A stretch of 64,000 bases of DNA from Streptomyces antibioticus (GCF_001514065.1 NZ_KQ948427.1:526624-590623); one strand, 5' to 3'; positions 12,629 through 20,694 are shown, counted from the first letter of the stretch. Notes: generated by a model not told the origin, from the sequence alone. Numbers and translations are program-made.

Positions 12629-13603
12629 GTGACGATCACTTCCCCTCACCTCGGCAGCCCCGCCGTCTGGACCGACGCCAAGCTGCTGTACGCGCTGGAG
12701 GAAGTCGTCGAGACCGAGCTCAACCGGCACCTGAAGGTCGCCAAGGACTGGATGCCGCACGAGTACGTGCCGTGGAGCGACGCCCGCAACTTCCCCGGCT
12801 TCTTCGAGGACGGCCAGGCCTGGGACAAGGAGCAGTCCAAGGTCACCGAGATCGGCCGCATCGCGCTCGTGGTGAACCTCCTCACCGAGGACAACCTCCC
12901 CAGCTACCACCACGAGATCGCCTCCCTGTTCGGCCGCGACGGCGCCTGGGGCACCTGGGTGCACCGCTGGACCGCCGAGGAGGGCCGGCACGGCATCGTG
13001 ATGCGCGACTACCTGCTCGCCTCGCGCGCGGTGGACCCGGACAAGCTGGAAGCGTTCCGCATGCAGCACATGTCGGAGGGCTTCGAGTCCGACAACCGCC
13101 ACTCCATGCTGCACTCGGTCGCCTACGTCGCCTTCCAGGAACTCGCGACCCGCATCTCGCACCGCAACACCGGTCACCAGTCCGGCGACCCCGTCTGCGA
13201 CCGCATGCTGGCGCGCATCGCGACCGACGAGAACCTCCACATGGTCTTCTACCGCAACCTCCTGAAGGCAGCGTTCGAGCTCGCGCCCGACCTGACCATG
13301 CAGGCGGTCCGGGACGTGGTCGTGAACTTCCGGATGCCCGGCCACGGCATGCCCGGCTTCGAGCGCTTCGCCGCGCAGATGGCCATCGGCGAGGTCTACA
13401 ACATGCGCATCCACCACGACGACGTCCTCCAGCCGGTCCTGCGCCACCTGAAGGTCATGGAGATCGACGGCCTCGGCCCCGAGGGCCAGCAGGCCCAGGA
13501 CGAGCTCGGCATGTTCATGGGCGGCCTGGACGCGGAGGCCCTGAAGTTCGACGAGAAGCTGGCGGCCCGCAAGGCGCGCATGGCGGCACGCGCGGCGGGC
13601 TGA
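12629..13603 (+). CDS. Acyl-[acyl-carrier-protein] desaturase (soluble di-iron type)
   Basis: 324 residues. A soluble di-iron desaturase that introduces a double bond into fatty acyl-ACP, changing membrane fluidity. Di-iron ligands sit in TEDNLPSYHHE, EEGRHG (the family's EExxH), FQELATRISHRN and ATDENLH (second D/ExxH). Most Streptomyces and mycobacterial DesA-like proteins share this layout. I prefer GTG 12629, which has CTGGAG ending five bases upstream; ATG 12608 is in frame. The three tandem palindromes upstream imply transcriptional control. Confidence 0.9.
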   Translation: MTITSPHLGSPAVWTDAKLLYALEEVVETELNRHLKVAKDWMPHEYVPWSDARNFPGFFEDGQAWDKEQSKVTEIGRIALVVNLLTEDNLPSYHHEIASLFGRDGAWGTWVHRWTAEEGRHGIVMRDYLLASRAVDPDKLEAFRMQHMSEGFESDNRHSMLHSVAYVAFQELATRISHRNTGHQSGDPVCDRMLARIATDENLHMVFYRNLLKAAFELAPDLTMQAVRDVVVNFRMPGHGMPGFERFAAQMAIGEVYNMRIHHDDVLQPVLRHLKVMEIDGLGPEGQQAQDELGMFMGGLDAEALKFDEKLAARKARMAARAAG

Positions 13604-13668: not shown

Positions 13669-14508
13669 ATGCGAGAGAACACCAGGACGGAGCGGGCGGT
13701 CGGGTTCCTGCTCGGCCTCGTCGACGAGAAGATCGCCGTACGGGTCCGGGCCCGGACCGGCCTGCCGGAGCCCGAGAGCCCCGCGCAGGCCCGGGGCCGC
13801 CTCACGCGCGCGTGGAGCTGGGCCGGGAACCTGGAGGCCTCCGTCGCGCTGTGGATCATGGAGAACGACGACCCGCGGCTCAACGCCGTGGTGTGGCGGT
13901 ACATCCCGACCGACGCGGGCCTGCGCCGCGCCATCGCGCGCGGGGTGCCGTTCGCACCCGGTCGCGTCGGTCCGATACCGGTCGACGCGACCTTGCCCGG
14001 GCAGGAGCCCGAGGTTCCCGAGGTCTACGTCCGTCTCGGCCTCGTCGGCGCCCTGCGCGAGGTCGGCAATTGGAGCGAGGGGCGCGCCGCCGCGTCCATG
14101 GTGCTCACCCGCGCGGACTGGGAGACGGTCGGTGCGGCGGACCGCGAACGCCCGCTGCCCGGTTACGCCCGCTGGGCGCTCGCCGTCCGCCCGGACTGCC
14201 CGCCCTCGGTGCGGGCCGGCTTCGGCGCGCACGCGAAGTTCACCCACCGGCTGCGCCAGGCGGGCGTGTTCGAGAACCCCGCCGACTACGTCGCCTCCGA
14301 CGGCCCGGCGCTGCGTGTCCTCGAAGTGCTGTCCCTGGGGCAACTCCTGTTCCCGGCACGGCTGAAGGAGGCCGAGGACGCCCTGCGGCCCCTCGTCCAG
14401 GAGCACTTGGGCGACCGCGAGGACGCGTGGGCGGTGCTGGCGCAGCTGACGGAGACGTTCCACGGGAACGCCCCGGAACTGATCGTCACGGCGGGCGCCA
14501 TCGCATAG
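13669..14508 (+). CDS. Conserved-looking hypothetical protein, 279 residues
   Basis: I do not recognise a family. From ATG 13669 the protein is soluble, with an Arg-rich helical first third (TERAVGFLLGLVDEKIAVRV), a middle part mentioning WIMENDDPRLNAVVWRYIP, and a C-terminal helical part ending in ETFHGNAPELIVTAGAIA. The alternation of short helices hints at an alpha-solenoid (HEAT-like) fold. No signal peptide or membrane segment is seen. It ends 12 bases before the tRNA-Trp-like gene, which lies on the opposite strand. Confidence 0.7.
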   Translation: MRENTRTERAVGFLLGLVDEKIAVRVRARTGLPEPESPAQARGRLTRAWSWAGNLEASVALWIMENDDPRLNAVVWRYIPTDAGLRRAIARGVPFAPGRVGPIPVDATLPGQEPEVPEVYVRLGLVGALREVGNWSEGRAAASMVLTRADWETVGAADRERPLPGYARWALAVRPDCPPSVRAGFGAHAKFTHRLRQAGVFENPADYVASDGPALRVLEVLSLGQLLFPARLKEAEDALRPLVQEHLGDREDAWAVLAQLTETFHGNAPELIVTAGAIA

Positions 14509-14520
14509 TGGGGGGAGGGG

Positions 14521-14594
14521 GCGGGGCGGCTGGATTCGAACCAGCGTGCTTCAGTTTTGGAGACCGATGCGCCTGCCTCTGCGCTACGACCCCG
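14521..14594 (-). tRNA. tRNA-Trp (anticodon CCA) with an irregular acceptor stem
   Basis: On the minus strand the sequence folds as a tRNA: D stem GCGC/GCGC with loop AGAGGCAG, anticodon stem TCGGT/ACTGA with loop CTCCAAA (anticodon CCA, complement of 14558-14560), five-base variable loop, T stem GCTGG/CCAGC with loop TTCGAAT. The acceptor arms pair only if one U is bulged (CGGGG-U-CG with CG-CCCCG), and the pairing can extend outward by extra G-C pairs. No 3' CCA is encoded. Body sequence is shared with the tRNAs at 20.4-20.6 kb. It is probably an extra tRNA or tRNA-like RNA rather than the housekeeping tRNA-Trp. Confidence 0.7.
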
Positions 14595-14685
14595 CCCTTG
14601 GCGCCCGATCGTAATGCCTTGGCCCGATGTCAGTGGGTCCTGGTACCAATGAGCCACGGGGGAAACGCATTTCGGGGGGCAGGAC

Positions 14686-16089
14686 ATGGCGTACGGGGAG
14701 CGGGGGCGGCGTCCCCCTGTGGTCGACCTGGCCGACCGGCGGGCGCTGGAGGCGTACCGTCCGGCCGATCCGGAGGTCGTGGCTGAGGCGCGGCGGCTCA
14801 AGGAGGCCGCGCTGCTGGACTTCGGGCTGACGGAGTCCGCCGTGGCGTCCTGGCTGTACGCGAAGTGCCATCACCAGATCCCGACGACCGCGATCGACAC
14901 GGCGGCCGTGGTGGCGTCCGGCGACGGCAGCTGTCTGCTGCTCTACAACCCGGGCTTCTTCACCGGCCTCGGCCTGGACGGCGTCAAGTTCGTCCTGTTC
15001 CACGAGGCACGCCATCTGGTGCACCGCCATCTGTTCGCCGACGAGGAGCTCCGGGACGACCCGGTCTTCGAGCTGGCCGCCGAGGTGTCCATCAACCATG
15101 TGGCGCTGATCCGGCTCGGCAGGACCGAACTCCCGCTGCTGGACGGCCGGCCGACGGGCATCGACCCGCGCAAGGTGTACGAGCACTACTGCGCGGACCT
15201 GACGGCGCACGGCCTGGAGCCCGTCCCGTACGAGACGTTCACCGAGACGGACATGCGGGTGTACGGCGAGCTGAAGCGCATGCACCGCCCACCGGTGCCG
15301 GAGCACCGCCTGTGCGTGCACATGCAGGGCGGCCTCGTCCCCGCCGACCAGGAGACCGTCGACGCGGTGACGTCGTCCGCGCTGCTCAACTCCCTGCTGG
15401 CGGCCCGGCGCGGGCACGCGGGCGCGGAGCGGGAGCTGCTCGACCTGATGGGCCGCACCGAGGACGGGAATGCGCGGGCCGCCCGGATCTGGGGAAACCT
15501 GGGCGCGGGCATGCTGCGCGGCGAGACCACGCGCACGCGTACGGTCGACTGGTGGCAGCGCTGGCTGGTCGACGTGCTCGGCTCCAAGCTGCGTGACGGT
15601 GAGCGGCTGGTCTACCCGAAGAAGCGGGGCGCGCTGCTCGCCGCCCTCGGCCAGGACCCGATGCTGGCGCGCCGCGGCCCGGTCCGGGACAAGGTGCTGG
15701 TCATCGCGTACGACACCTCGGGTTCGATGCCGCAGCACGTGATCGGCTGGCTCACCGAACTGGTGGGCCGCATCGACGGCGTGGAGGCGCACTGGCTGTC
15801 CTTCGACGCCGTGGTGATGCCCTTCCGGCCGGGCGAGCGGGTCTACGGCGGGGGCGGCACCAGCTTCCAGGCGGTCGCGGACTACGTGGAGGGGCGCACG
15901 GAGGTGAACGGACGTCGTTTCGACGTCAGTCCGGACGCTGTCGTGATGCTGACCGATGGATACGCGCCACCGATCACGCCCGCCGAGCCGGAGAAATGGA
16001 TCTGGCTGATCACCGAGGGCGGCAGCGAGTGGCTCGAGACGCACACACCGGCGATGGACTGCCATCGCGTCACCACCGGATCGCGGTAA
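14686..16089 (+). CDS. DUF2201-type putative metallopeptidase with VWA-like domain
   Basis: 467 residues in two parts. The N-terminal half has a zinc-protease-like helix FHEARHLVHRH (HExxH, His106-His110). The C-terminal half is a von Willebrand A-like domain with the MIDAS motif DTSGS at 343-347, preceded by KVLVIAY, and a GGGTSF turn that would provide the MIDAS Thr. This pairing is typical of partners of MoxR-type AAA ATPases, and such an ATPase follows 21 bp downstream on the same strand. Start is ATG 14686 with GGGGGG eight bases upstream. It is first in a two-gene operon, divergent from tRNA-Trp. Target unknown. Confidence 0.85.
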   Translation: MAYGERGRRPPVVDLADRRALEAYRPADPEVVAEARRLKEAALLDFGLTESAVASWLYAKCHHQIPTTAIDTAAVVASGDGSCLLLYNPGFFTGLGLDGVKFVLFHEARHLVHRHLFADEELRDDPVFELAAEVSINHVALIRLGRTELPLLDGRPTGIDPRKVYEHYCADLTAHGLEPVPYETFTETDMRVYGELKRMHRPPVPEHRLCVHMQGGLVPADQETVDAVTSSALLNSLLAARRGHAGAERELLDLMGRTEDGNARAARIWGNLGAGMLRGETTRTRTVDWWQRWLVDVLGSKLRDGERLVYPKKRGALLAALGQDPMLARRGPVRDKVLVIAYDTSGSMPQHVIGWLTELVGRIDGVEAHWLSFDAVVMPFRPGERVYGGGGTSFQAVADYVEGRTEVNGRRFDVSPDAVVMLTDGYAPPITPAEPEKWIWLITEGGSEWLETHTPAMDCHRVTTGSR

Positions 16090-16110
16090 AGGCCCAGGGG
16101 ATCACGGCAC

Positions 16111-17907
16111 ATGACCACGGACACACAGCAGTTGACGGTCTCGCGGCTCGAGTCCTTCATCGACGCGATGATCGACATGGGGCAGACGGGCCAGATCTTC
16201 GGCGAGCACGGCATCGGCAAGACGGCGACGTTCTTCTCGCACCTCGCCCGCGCCCACCCCGGCACGAGCCTGGTGTACGTCCCGGCGGCGAACCTGACGC
16301 CGGACGACCTGCTCGTCAACGCGCCGGTGCGCGATCCGCACACCGGTGAACTGGTGCTGCGCCAGCTGGTGATGAGCCAGTTGAAGCCGGGCACGCCGTT
16401 CGTGCTGCTCATCGACGACTCGTTGCAGGCGGGCGACACCATCCAGTCGCAGCTGATGCAGATCGCCTGCAACTGGACGCTGGGCGAGCACGATCTGCGG
16501 GCGCTCGGCTGCGTCGGCGTCTTCCTCACCGACAACGAGTCCTTGTCGGAGACCTCGTCCCGGCGCGGTGACCTGGCGCTCCTGGACCGTATGGTCACCA
16601 TGCGGATCACGGCCAACGACACGTCGTGGCGCCGGCATCTGGCCGCCAAGTACCGCCCGTGGGACCTGCGTCCGGTGTTCTCGCTGTGGGCGTCCCTCTC
16701 CCCCGCCCTGCGGGAGCTGCTGTCGCCGCGCACGCTCGACCATGTCCTCGCCAACGCGAAGGAGGGCTTCCCGCTGCGCTGGGGCCTGCCGCTGGTCGAC
16801 GGCGACCGGCTGCGCCTCGCCGAGCCGGGCCCGGACGGAAAGCCCGGGCAGAACCGGACACGGGAGATCCTGGACCGGATCGCCGAGGCGGTGGGCGTGG
16901 CCAACCCGTCCACGATTCCCGACCCGGTACGCCAGGTCGTGCGCGCGGCGCTGCGCAACCGCTGGACGGTGCTGCTCCAGGGCCCGCCCGGCTGCGGCAA
17001 GACGGAACTGGTGCGGGAGACGGTGCGGGCGGGCCTGGGCCGGGAGCCGCTGTACTTCTCGCTGCCGGTGACGAACGTCGAGGACCTGTGCGCGCCGATC
17101 CCGTCGGCCGACGGCACCCTCGACAACCTCCTCGCCGCGCACTTCACCGGTCCCGAGCCGAAGGCGATCGTGTGGGACGAGTACAACCGGCCCAAGGACA
17201 AGGCCGCGTTCGCCAAGCTCATGGAGATCACCCAGGAGTGGTCGCTGGCCGGGCGGCGGATCGAGAACCTGCGCGCCCAGATCGCGGTGCAGAACCCGCC
17301 GTACCACCTGGGCCGCAAGCTGCTGGTGTCGCGGAACAACATCGCGCAGGCGACGCGTTTCACGGCCTCCCTGGAGGTGGCGCCGGAGGACATCCCGGCC
17401 AACGAGTGGCTGCTGGCGCGCTACGGCGCGGACGCCGAGACGGTCCTGGAGTGGTGGAAGCACGACATCGACGACGACGGCCGCGCCTGGATCACCAAGC
17501 GCACCCTGGAGCGGCTGATCAAGCTGCACCGGCGCGGGCTGCCGCTGGAGATGGGCACGGTCTATCTCGGTGACGGCGAGTACGCGCCGGTGCCGCTCAC
17601 CGCGCTCCTCGACCGCCTCAAGGGCCGCGAGGTCACCGGGCTGCGTGAGCTCGCCCGGGACGCCGACGCCTGGGAGGCGAGGCTGCGGCGGGCCGCCGAG
17701 CAGTCCGGGGAGGGCGGCAATGACAGTGACGTGGTCCACCAGATCCTCGCCAACGCGGAGCTGTCGCAGTTGAAGAAGCACCGCGCGGTGGTGGCCCGGC
17801 TGGTGGCGCTGCTGCCGGCCAAGCTGCGGGCGACGTATCTCGTGGGGGCGTCGGAGAAGCAGCAGCGGTTCTGGACGGAGGTGTTCATGGGGATGCGGAG
17901 ACGGTAG
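16111..17907 (+). CDS. MoxR-like protein with two AAA+ modules
   Basis: 598 residues with two P-loops: GEHGIGKT at 31-38, followed by FVLLIDDS, and GPPGCGKT at 291-298, followed by AIVWDEYN. The layout is a tandem AAA+ ATPase of the MoxR/dynein-like side, related to chaperones that load or remodel VWA-domain partners. The partner is the upstream metallopeptidase/VWA gene 21 bp away. The C-terminal 120 residues are helical and have no named domain. Start is ATG 16111. It is convergent with the leucine-rich-repeat gene, with three bases between the two stops, so the two operons of the cassette meet tail to tail. Confidence 0.87.
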   Translation: MTTDTQQLTVSRLESFIDAMIDMGQTGQIFGEHGIGKTATFFSHLARAHPGTSLVYVPAANLTPDDLLVNAPVRDPHTGELVLRQLVMSQLKPGTPFVLLIDDSLQAGDTIQSQLMQIACNWTLGEHDLRALGCVGVFLTDNESLSETSSRRGDLALLDRMVTMRITANDTSWRRHLAAKYRPWDLRPVFSLWASLSPALRELLSPRTLDHVLANAKEGFPLRWGLPLVDGDRLRLAEPGPDGKPGQNRTREILDRIAEAVGVANPSTIPDPVRQVVRAALRNRWTVLLQGPPGCGKTELVRETVRAGLGREPLYFSLPVTNVEDLCAPIPSADGTLDNLLAAHFTGPEPKAIVWDEYNRPKDKAAFAKLMEITQEWSLAGRRIENLRAQIAVQNPPYHLGRKLLVSRNNIAQATRFTASLEVAPEDIPANEWLLARYGADAETVLEWWKHDIDDDGRAWITKRTLERLIKLHRRGLPLEMGTVYLGDGEYAPVPLTALLDRLKGREVTGLRELARDADAWEARLRRAAEQSGEGGNDSDVVHQILANAELSQLKKHRAVVARLVALLPAKLRATYLVGASEKQQRFWTEVFMGMRRR

Positions 17908-17910
17908 GCG

Positions 17911-19089
17911 TCAGGCCTCGGGTGGGGCCGTGCGGTGCACGCTGCGCACGGCGGCCACGTCGGCCGGGACCGCCGGGCGCGGCACGTGCGCGCTGTGCGC
18001 CTCCAGGCGCCGTTTGACGCTCGCCGCGATGCCCTGGCCCAGCACGAAGCGGGTGGCCGTGACGGCGTGGGGCGCGGTGTCGAGGAGGCGGTGGGCCTCG
18101 CGGCTGCGCATGCCGGTGTGGGTGAGGACGAGGTGGGTGAGGCGGTGCCGTTCGGCCGACAGGGTGTCGGCGATGGTGCCGGCGGCGGCCAGGTCGATGT
18201 GGTTGTCCGCCGCGCCCAGTACGGCGGCCGCGCGCACCCGGCCGAGGTCCAGCAGGGTGACCCCGGTCGCCTTGGCGGCCGTCACCAGCCGGGCGGTGGC
18301 CCGCGGTCCGATGCCGTTGCTGGCGACGGCGAGCCGGGTGAGCCGCCCGTACGGGGCCCGCTCCAGCGCGTGGGCCAGCCGGTCGGCGCCCGTGTCGCCC
18401 AACCGGGCGGCGGACACGTACAGTTCGTCGACCGCCCCGGCGGCGACCACCGAGCCGAGCGCTTCCGCGCCCGCCTCACCCAGCGGATTGCCTCCGACGA
18501 AGAGCCGCTCGATGCGGCGCCCGTTGTCCGCGGCGGCGAGCAGCGCGTCGGCGAGGACCAGGGCGCCCCTCGCGTCGAGGCCGGTCTGGACGAGGTCGAG
18601 GGTGCGCAACGACCGCGCCGACTCGATGAGTTCGGCCGCGGCACGGCCCCCGCCGGAGCCGAGCGGGTTGCGTTTGAGCCACACCCCGGTGACGACCTGT
18701 GGCGAGGCGCGCAGCTGGTCGGCGATCCGGCAGGCACCGCCCGCGGTGATCCCGTTGCACCCGAGGTAGAGCGTCTCGACCTCGGCACTCGCCCCGGCCA
18801 CCGCCTCGGCCCCGGTGTCACCCAGCCCGTCGGTCCCGAGCAGCAGATGCCGTACCGGAGTCGGGCCGTGGCCCAGCGCCTGGGCGACCAAGGATGCCCC
18901 CTCGGCGCCCAGTTCCTGCTTGCACAGGTCCAGGCGCCCGTCCGGCAGGGCCGTACCGGCCGGGAAGTCCAGCCGTTCGCCGGCAGGTCGCCCGGCCCTC
19001 AACCAGTCCAGCAGCGGGGCGAGTTCGGCGGCCGGGCGCGGTACGACGGACGGCACCCCGACGAAACCGCTCGTCTCCTCCGTCACCAC
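17911..19089 (-). CDS. Leucine-rich-repeat protein (ribonuclease-inhibitor type)
   Basis: 392 residues. After about 60 N-terminal residues come roughly nine repeats of about 28 residues with the pattern LxxLxLxxNxxGxxGAxxLA, for example VETLYLGCNGITAGGACRIA, RTLDLVQTGLDARGALVLA and RLTRLAVASNGIGPRATARL. This is the RI-like LRR seen in NLR-type sensors, here without an NTPase or effector domain of its own. Start is one of two adjacent GTG codons at 19089/19086; the second overlaps the SDR stop as GTGA, so translation is coupled to the SDR gene. A binding or sensor role in the cassette is inferred. Confidence 0.85.
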   Translation of the reverse strand: MVTEETSGFVGVPSVVPRPAAELAPLLDWLRAGRPAGERLDFPAGTALPDGRLDLCKQELGAEGASLVAQALGHGPTPVRHLLLGTDGLGDTGAEAVAGASAEVETLYLGCNGITAGGACRIADQLRASPQVVTGVWLKRNPLGSGGGRAAAELIESARSLRTLDLVQTGLDARGALVLADALLAAADNGRRIERLFVGGNPLGEAGAEALGSVVAAGAVDELYVSAARLGDTGADRLAHALERAPYGRLTRLAVASNGIGPRATARLVTAAKATGVTLLDLGRVRAAAVLGAADNHIDLAAAGTIADTLSAERHRLTHLVLTHTGMRSREAHRLLDTAPHAVTATRFVLGQGIAASVKRRLEAHSAHVPRPAVPADVAAVRSVHRTAPPEA

Positions 19090-20411
19090 TCCGCCTCCTG
19101 GTAGTCCTTGAGGAACACCCCGGCCAGGGGCTCCCCCGCCTCCCCGCGCACGATCGGGTCGTACACCCGGGCCGCCCCGTCCACGATGTCCAGCGGCGTC
19201 CGGAACCCGGCCTCGGCCATGCGGGCCTTCTTCGGTGCCGGGTTCTCATCGGTGATCCAGCCGGTGTCGACGGCACACATGTGCACGCCCTGGTCGGCGA
19301 GTTCGGCGGCGCTGGTACGGGTGAGCATGTTGAGGGCGGCCTTGGCCATGTTGGTGTGGGGATGCCCGGCCATCTTGTTGCGGACGGCGAAGCGTCCCTC
19401 GACTGCGGTCACGTTGACCACGTACCGGCGCGGCCGCGGCGAGGCCAGCAGCAGGGGCAGCAGCCGGTCGCACAGCAGGGCCGGGGCGAGGGCGTTGACG
19501 AGCTGGGTCTCCAGCACCTCGGCCGGATCGAGTGCGCCGAGCCGGGCCGACCAGGAGTTCTCCGGGGACGGATCGGGCAGCAGTCCGGCCTCGTCGGCCT
19601 CGCGCAGGGCGACGGGCAGGGACGCGGCACCGCTCTCCAGCATCCGCATCGGCGTGAACCCGGGTGCCTGCCGGGCCCCTTCGGGCAGGGCCTCGTACTC
19701 CCCGGCGGCGAGCAGCGCGTACGACTCCGGCGGTCTGCGGACCGTCTGGGCGGCGTTGTTGACGAGGATGTCCAACGGCCGCCCCTCCTGCCGCAACTCC
19801 TCGCACAGGCCGAGCACTTGACGGGGGTCGCGGAGGTCGACGGCGAGCACGGTCAGCCGGTCGAGCCACTTCCCGCTGCCGGGCTCGGCCCGGAAACGGC
19901 GCAGGGTGTCGTGCGGGAAGCGGGAGGTGACCAGCAGCTCGGCGCCGTCCCGCAGCATCATCAGGGCGAGTTGGAAGCCGATCTTCACCCGGCCGCCGGT
20001 GAGCAGGGCGCGGCGGCCGGTGAGGTCGGTGCTCAGGGCGCGGCGGGCGGTGTTGTCGGCGGCGCAGGAAGGGCAGAGCCGGTGGTAGAAGGAGTCGACC
20101 TCTCGATAGGGCGACTTGCAGACATAGCAGGTGCGGGGTTTGCGGAAGACTCCCGCGGTGCCCGGCAGGGCCAGCGGGGCGTCCTCGCGCCGCTCCGGGG
20201 CGCCCGTCGCGGTCGCGGCCATCGCCGCCGCGTCGGCGGCCGTCACCTCGGCACCCCGCGTCTTGCGGCGGCGCAGGCGTCCGTCGCGGGCGAAGGAGGC
20301 GGCGACCTGCTCGGCGCGCAGCCGCACCGGGTCGTCGACGGGCAGGGCGCGCAGCTTGCCCACGACCTGGTGGAAGGCGGCCAGTTCCGCCTCGCTGATC
20401 GCCTCGCCCAT
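19083..20411 (-). CDS. SDR-fold protein with N-terminal zinc ribbon and altered active site
   Basis: 442 residues. The first 90 are helical and charged. A four-Cys zinc ribbon follows (CYVC at 95-98, CPSC at 113-116), then a short-chain dehydrogenase fold with TGGRVKIG at 138-145, ILVNNAAQ and NVTAVEGRF. At the place of the catalytic YxxxK the sequence is HPHTNMAKAALN: Lys357 is kept but the Tyr is replaced by Thr353, so ordinary SDR chemistry is doubtful. Start ATG 20411 lies 31 bp downstream of tRNA-Asp on the same strand. It is the first protein gene of a possible tRNA-Cys, tRNA-Asp, SDR, LRR transcript. I know of no assigned function. Confidence 0.85.
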   Translation of the reverse strand: MGEAISEAELAAFHQVVGKLRALPVDDPVRLRAEQVAASFARDGRLRRRKTRGAEVTAADAAAMAATATGAPERREDAPLALPGTAGVFRKPRTCYVCKSPYREVDSFYHRLCPSCAADNTARRALSTDLTGRRALLTGGRVKIGFQLALMMLRDGAELLVTSRFPHDTLRRFRAEPGSGKWLDRLTVLAVDLRDPRQVLGLCEELRQEGRPLDILVNNAAQTVRRPPESYALLAAGEYEALPEGARQAPGFTPMRMLESGAASLPVALREADEAGLLPDPSPENSWSARLGALDPAEVLETQLVNALAPALLCDRLLPLLLASPRPRRYVVNVTAVEGRFAVRNKMAGHPHTNMAKAALNMLTRTSAAELADQGVHMCAVDTGWITDENPAPKKARMAEAGFRTPLDIVDGAARVYDPIVRGEAGEPLAGVFLKDYQEAEW

Positions 20412-20442
20412 GTGCCGTCCCCGCCCCGTGTTCGCCGTACCG

Positions 20443-20514
20443 CGGTCCCGACCGGATTCGAACCGGCGTATCCGCCCTGACAAGGCGGCGAGTCTGCCTC
20501 TGCTCTACGGGACC
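20443..20514 (-). tRNA. tRNA-Asp (anticodon GTC), compact unusual isoacceptor
   Basis: Minus-strand cloverleaf of 72 nt. The acceptor GGTCCCG/CGGGACC is perfect, with discriminator G. D arm GAGC/ACTC has loop AGAGGCAG; anticodon stem CCGCC/GGCGG has loop TTGTCAG (anticodon GTC); there is a four-base variable loop ATAC; T stem GCCGG/CCGGT has loop TTCGAAT. No CCA is encoded. The D loop and T arm match the other two tRNAs of this region rather than the usual Streptomyces tRNA-Asp as I remember it. It lies 11 bp after tRNA-Cys and 31 bp before the SDR start. Confidence 0.85.
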
Positions 20515-20525
20515 CCGCGAACGCA

Positions 20526-20597
20526 CCCGGACGGCCGGATTCGAACCGGCGTGATCGCCTGTGCAGGGCGGTGCGCCTGCCTCTGCGCTACGTCCGG
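20526..20597 (-). tRNA. tRNA-Cys (anticodon GCA), compact unusual isoacceptor
   Basis: Minus-strand cloverleaf of 72 nt. Acceptor CCGGACG/CGTCCGG is perfect; the D stem is GCGC/GCGC with loop AGAGGCAG; anticodon stem CCGCC/GGCGA has one C-A mismatch at its base, with loop CTGCACA (anticodon GCA); variable loop TCAC; T stem GCCGG/CCGGC has loop TTCGAAT. The discriminator is G rather than the U73 that normally identifies tRNA-Cys, so charging by normal CysRS is uncertain. No CCA is encoded. It is first of a tandem pair with tRNA-Asp. Confidence 0.83.
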
Positions 20598-20694
20598 ATG
20601 CGCTCCCGGATCTTAGCCGCACTCCGATCGGCCGGTCGCACGGATTTACGGGACGCCCTGGCGGTGCAACGGTGCCCGCAGGGGGTGACACACC

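Follow-up and report, generated by a model that had tools for sequence, protein, structure and literature searches.

A 64,000-nt stretch of the Streptomyces antibioticus genome (GCF_001514065.1 NZ_KQ948427.1:526624-590623; genome 10.1 Mb), called the window below, carries a cassette of five protein genes and three tRNA-like RNAs on the minus strand. Comparison of genomes shows that a dedicated family of tRNA-like RNAs is tied to this five-gene cassette, not every gene being found in every locus, and that within the family a nearly constant RNA body bears a variable anticodon arm, in part like that of true tRNAs. The proteins are a putative metallopeptidase with a VWA-like domain, an ATPase with two AAA domains, a leucine-rich repeat (LRR) protein, an SDR protein and a fifth product, ORF5. 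What we say of the function of these tRNA-mimic arrays and their protein cassette we infer throughout. Searches of the open-access literature, judged by titles and the first lines of abstracts and not reaching most subscription papers or preprints, listed no description of the arrangement. We propose, with a probability of roughly 0.36, that the RNAs are anticodon-loop baits read by the SDR and LRR proteins, with the AAA, VWA and peptidase parts as executors.

Linkage between the RNAs and the proteins is seen from both sides. The peptidase gave matches in 20 of 147 genomes of a same-order sample, one of them weak (29% identity), which leaves 19 convincing loci, and tRNA-like genes lie in the fetched stretch at 17 of these; of the remaining two, one begins at a contig end (L062) and one shows just the peptidase and AAA genes (L059). 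An RNA-first scan of a genome collection with an exact body pattern, derived from the cassette RNAs themselves, returned at least 117 stretches, some of which share a contig, and among the matches listed 111 of 117 have at least one cassette protein and 6 have none. The 80 titles among these listed matches name Streptomyces, Kitasatospora, Amycolatopsis, Saccharothrix, Lentzea, Kutzneria, Kibdelosporangium, Murinocardiopsis, Streptacidiphilus, Streptosporangium, Actinacidiphila, Actinospica and Catenulispora. In a genus sample of 295 genomes the exact pattern occurs in 31, and in 30 of them it adjoins a cassette-type SDR gene by coordinates, counting one genome in which the SDR match is truncated (G1065, locus L313); in the exception, G1055, the pattern lies elsewhere. 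The reversed control pattern had no match in the genomes listed. Four of the 46 SDR matches in this sample (G897, G098, G1094, G1055) are 52–59% identical and form a lower tier that was not counted as cassette SDRs. Chance linkage is ruled out by the RNA-first stretches listed together with the co-location in the genus sample. A joined cassette with dedicated tRNA genes, as an earlier sequence-only reading of the window had suggested, does recur in actinobacteria, its genes being found together elsewhere and not mostly without the RNAs; of the four proteins named in that reading, the LRR and the AAA/peptidase pair are optional.

The SDR gene is the most constant partner, since some RNA loci keep it without the LRR, peptidase and AAA genes. 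At all 13 cassette-type SDR loci of the genus sample that lack the exact RNA pattern (G001 included), these three genes are absent within ∼9 kb, and decayed RNA relics of 27–63 bits lie at three SDR loci without the exact pattern (L134, L303, L307). Loss of the RNAs accompanies loss of the other three genes; the converse fails, because L313 and L317 keep RNAs without them.

The three window RNAs belong, by their sequences, to one divergent tRNA-like family with a signature D-arm. A covariance model of our own, built from 41 RNAs, gives them 87.7, 86.6 and 83.9 bits, with the next of 44 matches in the genome at 61.9, and the Rfam tRNA model places them at 47.8–52.8 bits, in ranks 64, 66 and 74 among the 77 tRNA matches of the genome. 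Normal Trp, Asp and Cys tRNAs are present elsewhere in the genome, so the copies in the window are extra. The D-arm near GTAGNGCAGAGGCAGNCNC and the T-arm around GGTTCGAATCC are common to the cassette RNAs whatever their anticodon; one alignment of the family, A6, holds 150 of 151 matches. In the 41 RNAs of another, A4, 93.4% of cloverleaf cells are paired, changes on both sides are seen in 16 of 20 pairs, none of 500 shuffles reached the covariation score, and shifting the pairing by one column as a control brings paired cells down to 53.1% or 40.2%. The cloverleaf is maintained by selection, as that of an ordinary elongator tRNA would be; the test leans in favour of this result, because A4 was chosen from ARAGORN calls, that is, from cloverleaf-like members.

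Could these be just three duplicated housekeeping tRNAs beside unrelated genes, or attachment sites of a phage or island? The idea can hardly be right: the linkage seen in the RNA-first stretches listed and in 30 of 31 pattern-positive genus genomes speaks against it, and so does the standing of the RNAs as a separate family in the genome. tRNA genes are common as island borders, and a phage tRNA with the same D-arm exists. The latter is a tRNA-Thr(GGT) within a large phage tRNA array on two viral contigs (L268:852-926 and L269:336-410), with the D-arm GTAGCGCAGAGGCAGGCGC as in cassette RNAs and 78.5 bits under the cassette RNA model, for which exchange or convergence are possible origins. A third viral contig, phage-like (L267:8598-8680), bears a single tRNA-like RNA with this body and an anticodon loop of 12 nt; its stretch shows no cassette protein. 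We rejected all three viral stretches as cassette members, two being the same phage tRNA array and one phage-like without cassette proteins.

Upstream of the leading RNAs, promoter-like elements are frequent. Of 79 first-of-array RNAs, 70 have a -10-like TANNNT at -25..-8 (3.9 on average after shuffling), as do all 36 RNAs on the peptidase (MP) side (2.7 after shuffling). The palindrome TGGTACCA, a possible operator, is present in 23 of 36 upstream regions of MP-side RNAs, i.e. in the gap between RNA and peptidase gene (shuffled mean 0.0), and in none of the 79 first-of-array regions. Among 229 contexts of unique RNAs, 166 place the RNA upstream of the SDR gene in the same direction, at a median distance of 110 bp. 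Another 36 RNAs are divergent from the peptidase gene and 22 are downstream of the SDR or LRR gene in their direction; AAA or LRR is the nearest gene in 5 and SDR is the nearest cassette gene in 176. These contexts leave out 8 of 237 unique RNAs, which have no cassette protein in the stretch, and L267. The position of the array directly upstream of the SDR gene would suit a regulatory pseudo-tRNA, a sponge or regulator that acts on proteins binding or modifying tRNAs, or on the SDR/LRR transcript via RNase P/Z processing, and that involves no sensing of nucleases. The decayed relics at some SDR-only loci agree with such a role, and a precedent exists in tRNA-Other of Bacillus cereus, a tRNA-like RNA without translation function (PMC3399842; here and below the cited literature is taken in excerpt). 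We consider this alternative unlikely. An MP-side RNA is divergent from the peptidase gene in all 36 such contexts, so it is no leader of that gene, and a sponge leaves the avoidance of repeats and the rapid turnover of anticodons, described below, unexplained. tRNA-Other also differs in being a single gene within a larger regulatory RNA, with no anticodon diversification or protein cassette mentioned in the excerpt.

Anticodons of the family vary widely. SDR-proximal RNAs have CTC, GTC, GGC, GCT, CGC, GCC and others, SDR-distal RNAs have GCC, GCT, GGC, GCA, CTC and others, and MP-side RNAs have CCA in 29 of 36 and GCA, GGC, GCG or CGC elsewhere, for example in Kibdelosporangium (L181), Kutzneria (L168) and Streptacidiphilus (L173). 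Two close relatives, with SDR proteins 97.7% and 97.5% identical to that of the window, carry GCT/CTC and CGC/CTC where the window has GCA/GTC, with bodies and -10 element nearly the same; swaps among close relatives are of Cys, Ser and Ala types at one RNA and of Asp and Glu types at the other. The view of Trp, Asp and Cys as a fixed tRNA set therefore fails, as anticodons differ even between close relatives. Across 413 near-identical pairs from the same position, differences per site amount to 0.211 in the anticodon, 0.237 in the rest of the loop, 0.130 in the anticodon stem and 0.037 in the body; by these rates the hot spot is the whole anticodon arm, not the anticodon alone. An anticodon is repeated in 1 of 66 arrays, where 7.2 (standard deviation, sd, 2.2) are expected with labels shuffled within position and 5 of 5000 shuffles are as low, and an isotype is repeated in 3 of 66.

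Concentration of variation in the anticodon arm over a nearly frozen body resembles a split between guide and scaffold, and the RNAs might be guides whose variable loop pairs with a target transcript or tRNA, the tRNA body being a scaffold for protein binding. The Catenulispora-type RNAs fit this, having a much enlarged anticodon loop that holds 6 of the 8 columns varying within the RNA (8 aligned). Loop sizes of the family as a whole make guides quite unlikely: among 213 positioned unique RNAs, counted with a heuristic parser, 201 have a 7-nt loop and 12 another size (6, 8, 9, 12, 15 and 17 nt were seen). Pairing with arbitrary targets would also not need the average likeness to the native loop of the same isotype, and no nuclease was recognised in the cassette.

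This likeness is seen at bases 32, 37 and 38, where on average 2.04 of the 3 agree with the housekeeping tRNA that has the same anticodon, versus 1.62 (sd 0.04) for shuffled sets, or 1.86 versus 1.50 without Trp types; the test excluded a 95-nt ARAGORN call judged spurious as well as 6 of 201 RNAs, with an anticodon outside the housekeeping set or a poor stem. The complete 17-nt anticodon arm is identical to that of a tRNA of the window's genome in 17 of 195 RNAs. Among the 7-nt loops U33 is kept in 175 of 201 and lacking in 26, and at 37 a purine stands in 162 and a pyrimidine in 39; the RNAs without U33 and those with a pyrimidine at 37 weigh against simple mimicry.

In contrast to their decoding-like loops, several types lack what their isotype should have. 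U73 is central for cysteine identity and a long variable arm for serine (PMC9976931). No Cys-type row has U73 (0 of 11), the variable region of Ser(GCT) types is 4–5 nt in 17 of 17 unique RNAs with no long arm, and C73 stands in 55 of 65 Trp-type rows. Not all isotypes depart from their rule: Asp types have G73 in 15 of 28 rows. These row counts include duplicate rows; the parsing of base 73 and loops failed for 12 RNAs (10 relics or low scorers and two apparently intact Trp types, L189 and L214), and L268-L269 were left out. On the MP side an 8-nt 5' acceptor strand faces 7 nt in 33 of 34 scored RNAs (of 36), and C73 is likewise found in 33 of 34. Acceptor stems and base 73 vary with position in the locus. 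Charging according to anticodon is unlikely, because the identity elements are missing in Cys, Ser and mostly Trp types, and since the anticodons vary as well, the RNAs are very unlikely to be ordinary Trp, Asp and Cys tRNAs.

The same missing elements, along with the enlarged loops, tell against charged RNAs that donate amino acids to a non-ribosomal aminoacyl transfer by a cassette protein. In its favour, the anticodons seen show a bias towards Trp, Ala, Gly, Asp, Glu, Ser and Cys, and several of these amino acids are used by known tRNA-dependent ligases. By Pfam no cassette protein resembles an aminoacyl-tRNA-dependent transferase, and we give this explanation a slim chance.

A more serious rival is programmed mistranslation, in which a tRNA body for one amino acid with varied anticodons would misread several codons under stress. 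It is serious because tRNA-ProX, with its partner ProRSx, varies anticodons on one body in the same genera, Streptomyces and Kitasatospora, as a dedicated tRNA family with an adjoining partner gene (PMC10365949), and constant bodies with swapped anticodons are the pattern reported there. Frequent U33, frequent purine 37 and bases 32/37/38 that follow the matching housekeeping isotype are in line with decoding. We nevertheless think mistranslation unlikely. The partner of tRNA-ProX is a prolyl-tRNA synthetase, whereas Pfam recognised no synthetase, and no ProRS paralogue, among six window proteins, and the widest neighbour family besides ORF5 in the listed clusters is present in 6 of 31 cassettes compared. 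Acceptor stem and base 73, varying by locus position, give no single identity set, the more so with the bulge and C73 of MP-side RNAs, and loops of 6 to 17 nt, or with a pyrimidine at 37, are expected to decode poorly. The cassette also differs from tRNA-ProX in its larger number of anticodons and its five other proteins. The tRNA-Pro genes of the window's genome score 48–53 bits with the cassette RNA model and are not the nearest housekeeping matches.

The layout in the window is given in Table 1. Coordinates and strands of the four larger genes, the 7-bp overlap of the LRR and SDR genes, and the tail-to-tail order of the two gene pairs (3 bp between them) are as the sequence-only reading gave them, and ARAGORN finds the three flanking RNAs with the same anticodons, these being the only tRNA genes it calls in the window; each lies on the minus strand. 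The full block extends beyond that reading, which missed the conserved ORF5 left of the Trp-type RNA.

Table 1. Features of the cassette in the window (positions counted from the first nucleotide of the 64,000-nt stretch)
Feature	Coordinates	Strand	Basis or remark
ORF5 (fifth cassette gene, 279 aa)	13669..14508	+	no clear Pfam family
tRNA-like RNA, Trp(CCA) type, MP (peptidase) side	14518..14595	-	ARAGORN; 8-nt 5' acceptor strand vs 7 nt (bulge), C73
-10-like element TACGAT of Trp-type RNA	14608..14613	-	TANNNT count
Palindrome TGGTACCA between divergent Trp-type RNA and peptidase gene, possible operator	14641..14648	.	upstream-region count
MP_VWA: DUF2201_N putative metallopeptidase (HEARH) + VWA-like domain	14686..16089	+	Pfam
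AAA: double P-loop AAA (AAA_5) ATPase, loosely MoxR-like	16111..17907	+	Pfam
LRR: ribonuclease-inhibitor-type leucine-rich repeat protein	17911..19089	-	Pfam LRR_6, AlphaFold, Foldseek
SDR: N-terminal helices + Cys4 zinc-ribbon-like segment + Rossmann domain	19083..20411 (ATG at 20411)	-	Pfam adh_short
tRNA-like RNA, Asp(GTC) type, SDR-proximal	20442..20514	-	ARAGORN
tRNA-like RNA, Cys(GCA) type, leading RNA of the array, with G73 in place of U73	20525..20598	-	ARAGORN
-10-like element TAAGAT of RNA array/SDR/LRR unit	20610..20615	-	TANNNT count

The SDR model (pLDDT 82) shows two helices at the N-terminus, a zinc-ribbon-like segment in which four Cys are invariant, and a Rossmann domain with FabG-like matches, which together with the adh_short match agrees with the zinc-ribbon SDR proposed earlier. 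The catalytic Ser and Tyr, which we take by motif to belong at positions 336 and 353, are replaced by Ala336 and Thr353; these two and Lys357 do not vary across the 33 sequences compared, paralogues among them, and because of this replacement the usual SDR catalysis is unlikely. A paralogue 41–51% identical is widespread, and ARAGORN finds no tRNA-like RNAs within its stretches (one has an ordinary tRNA-Val); the widest family among its neighbours besides SDR and its other frames covers 4 of 15 loci and is another SDR. The window's genome has a second zinc-ribbon pseudo-SDR of this paralogue family (C6:267426-268853, L143), ∼47% identical to the cassette SDR.

The LRR protein (AlphaFold pLDDT 91) is predicted to have a ribonuclease-inhibitor-like (RI-like) horseshoe fold. 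Its best Foldseek match is bovine ribonuclease inhibitor (4peq, E 1.9e-13), as the RI-type assignment of the sequence-only reading implied, with 1a4y also found; identity to ribonuclease inhibitor is 15–22% in the listed alignments. LRRs of NLRs come close behind, and the RipG4 LRR matches well too.

The peptidase likewise bears out its description as a DUF2201-like protein with a VWA domain. Pfam recognises DUF2201_N, and both the HExxH residues H106, E107 and H110 and the MIDAS residues D343, S345 and S347 with T392 and D424 are invariant in 10 aligned rows; the match to the VWA family falls below threshold (PF09967, 16.3 bits versus a cut-off of 26.4). No solved-structure relative was found at E ≤ 0.1. 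At four loci (L069, L197, L260, L265) the peptidase match is broken into two or three parts, a pattern suggestive of frameshifts or of errors in sequencing. In the ATPase the Walker A motifs GEHGIGKT and GPPGCGKT are invariant at key residues in 11 aligned rows. The label "MoxR-like" fits it in part: it has two AAA domains and lies beside a VWA gene, but its Pfam family is AAA_5, and AAA_3, which we take to be the MoxR family model, is not among the 10 families listed.

ORF5 lies convergent and directly beyond the RNA in 29 of 31 cases, these being the unique MP-side RNAs (of 36) for which 500 bp or more of sequence could be inspected. Relatives of it are found in Kutzneria (L168), Amycolatopsis (L152), Kibdelosporangium (L181), Saccharothrix (L222) and at L060, it can persist without peptidase and AAA in the stretch (L126, L201, L222, L313), and its Pfam matches are to TPR at sub-threshold scores.

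Taken with a constant body, a variable arm, types apparently unchargeable by isotype and distinct anticodons within an array, the RI-type LRR makes a panel of baits or sensors the reading that fits best. The RNAs would not decode; they would display a set of anticodon loops, and the constant D-arm and body would offer a handle, for which the zinc-ribbon pseudo-SDR is the likeliest holder. Attack on a bait would come from a toxin directed at the anticodon loop, such as an anticodon nuclease, whether of phage origin, made by a competitor or belonging to defences that the cell itself has activated. The RNase-inhibitor-like LRR, possibly by gripping the nuclease, would help to read the resulting change, and the AAA/VWA/metallopeptidase pair would then execute a stress, dormancy or abortive response. 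We propose that turnover of anticodons between sister species and the rarity of repeats within an array come from an arms race with changing nucleases. On this basis the cassette may, tentatively, be seen as an undescribed immune or stress module in which fast-evolving tRNA mimics are baits, the pseudo-SDR and LRR proteins hold and read them, and the AAA/VWA/metallopeptidase part executes. The tRNA-linked stress or immunity switch suggested by the sequence-only reading is compatible with the data.

A number of observations weigh against a panel of baits. Neither Pfam nor PADLOC, the latter run on four of the proteins, recognised a nuclease, a ligase or a known family of defence proteins in the cassette; what PADLOC matched was confined to P-loop stretches of the AAA protein. 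Neither 72,556 plasmid records (E ≤ 1e-20) nor 50,697 phage records (E ≤ 1e-10) gave a match to this protein, and in Streptomyces the cassette often adjoins a desaturase gene, with no obvious defence island. RNAs are found with SDR and without LRR, peptidase or AAA in the stretch at L126, L153, L313 and L317. An RI-type fold is no proof of RNase binding, because NLRs and other proteins have RI-type LRRs. As to the RNAs themselves, the pyrimidine at 37 in 39 of 201 could mean resistance to cleavage instead of bait, those with non-7-nt loops or the enlarged Catenulispora loops mimic no cellular tRNA, and loop bases outside the anticodon vary as much as the anticodon does. Finally, anticodons are partly inherited and their turnover, while fast, is not unlimited, since a 72-row SDR tree needs fewer changes than shuffled labels do: at least 35 for the proximal anticodon versus 44.4 (sd 1.8), and for the anticodon of the next RNA, in 53 rows, at least 31 versus 36.0 (sd 1.8), none of 200 shuffles being as low in either case.

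Some further RNAs were noted around these searches. The Rfam ASdes sRNA model matches positions 12980-13047 of the window, antisense to the fatty-acid desaturase gene adjoining the cassette. Class-wide pattern matches to tRNA-Leu(TAA), in 6 of 13 genomes matched, were rejected, having another D-arm register and no cassette protein in the fetched stretch. At L128, L129, L130, L131, L132 and L133, in other genomes of the class, the variable region of tRNA-Leu(TAA) is short where a long arm is usual. The window's genome itself has odd tRNAs with Leu anticodons (CAG, CAA, TAG) and short variable regions outside the cassette (C16:2511, C11:293218 and C2:970407; L323, L336 and L344).

Parts of the cassette recall other known systems. 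Altered anticodon loops of phage tRNAs have been read as a sign of conflict with anticodon nucleases (PMC10264068). Those tRNAs are phage-borne and proposed to be functional, resistant replacements; cassette RNAs are chromosomal, apparently unchargeable by isotype and tied to proteins. Clustered extra tRNAs are known from mycobacterial tRNA array units, considered putative anti-defence (PMC5966550, PMC12803027), and from the Anabaena trn operon, activated under translational stress (PMC10272220); both, compared here by description, comprise dozens of tRNAs, and the excerpts mention no SDR, LRR, AAA or VWA partners. On the protein side, an AAA+ gene adjoining a VWA gene with MIDAS residues is found in the cassette as in the MoxR AAA+/VWA pairs NorQ/NorD and RavA/ViaA (PMC9976466, PMC10848872), and ternary VMAP conflict systems also have AAA+ and VWA partners (PMC7159879). 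The excerpts on these systems mention no tRNA-like RNAs, and DUF2201 has no occurrence in the VMAP paper (PMC7159879); the cassette differs in its DUF2201-type peptidase-VWA protein, AAA_5, SDR and LRR. Pfam results for the cassette proteins include no domain of a third VMAP component or fused effector, though Pfam may not model VMAP.

Mammalian ribonuclease inhibitor, whose fold is the best structural match to the predicted cassette LRR, is linked to tRNAs through angiogenin, which cleaves them under stress (PMC9655011). RNase binding by the cassette LRR would be a prediction from its fold, at the low identity given above. SDR5C1 has an SDR fold. This protein takes part in human mitochondrial tRNA processing (PMC11996679), and its likeness to the cassette SDR is by analogy only, as an SDR protein linked to tRNAs.

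Anticodons are among the most conserved parts of genomes, and their turnover on nearly frozen bodies points to selection on the loop outside ordinary decoding. Even if the RNAs serve mistranslation or regulation, a tRNA-like family this large with dedicated partners across actinobacteria is undescribed in the open-access literature as far as this was searched. The cassette is small enough for transfer into laboratory Streptomyces. If the RNAs are indeed baits, anticodon nucleases, LRR sensors and AAA/VWA machines would be joined in one system, and this would be a new sensing principle, in which tRNAs are guarded by decoy copies of themselves.

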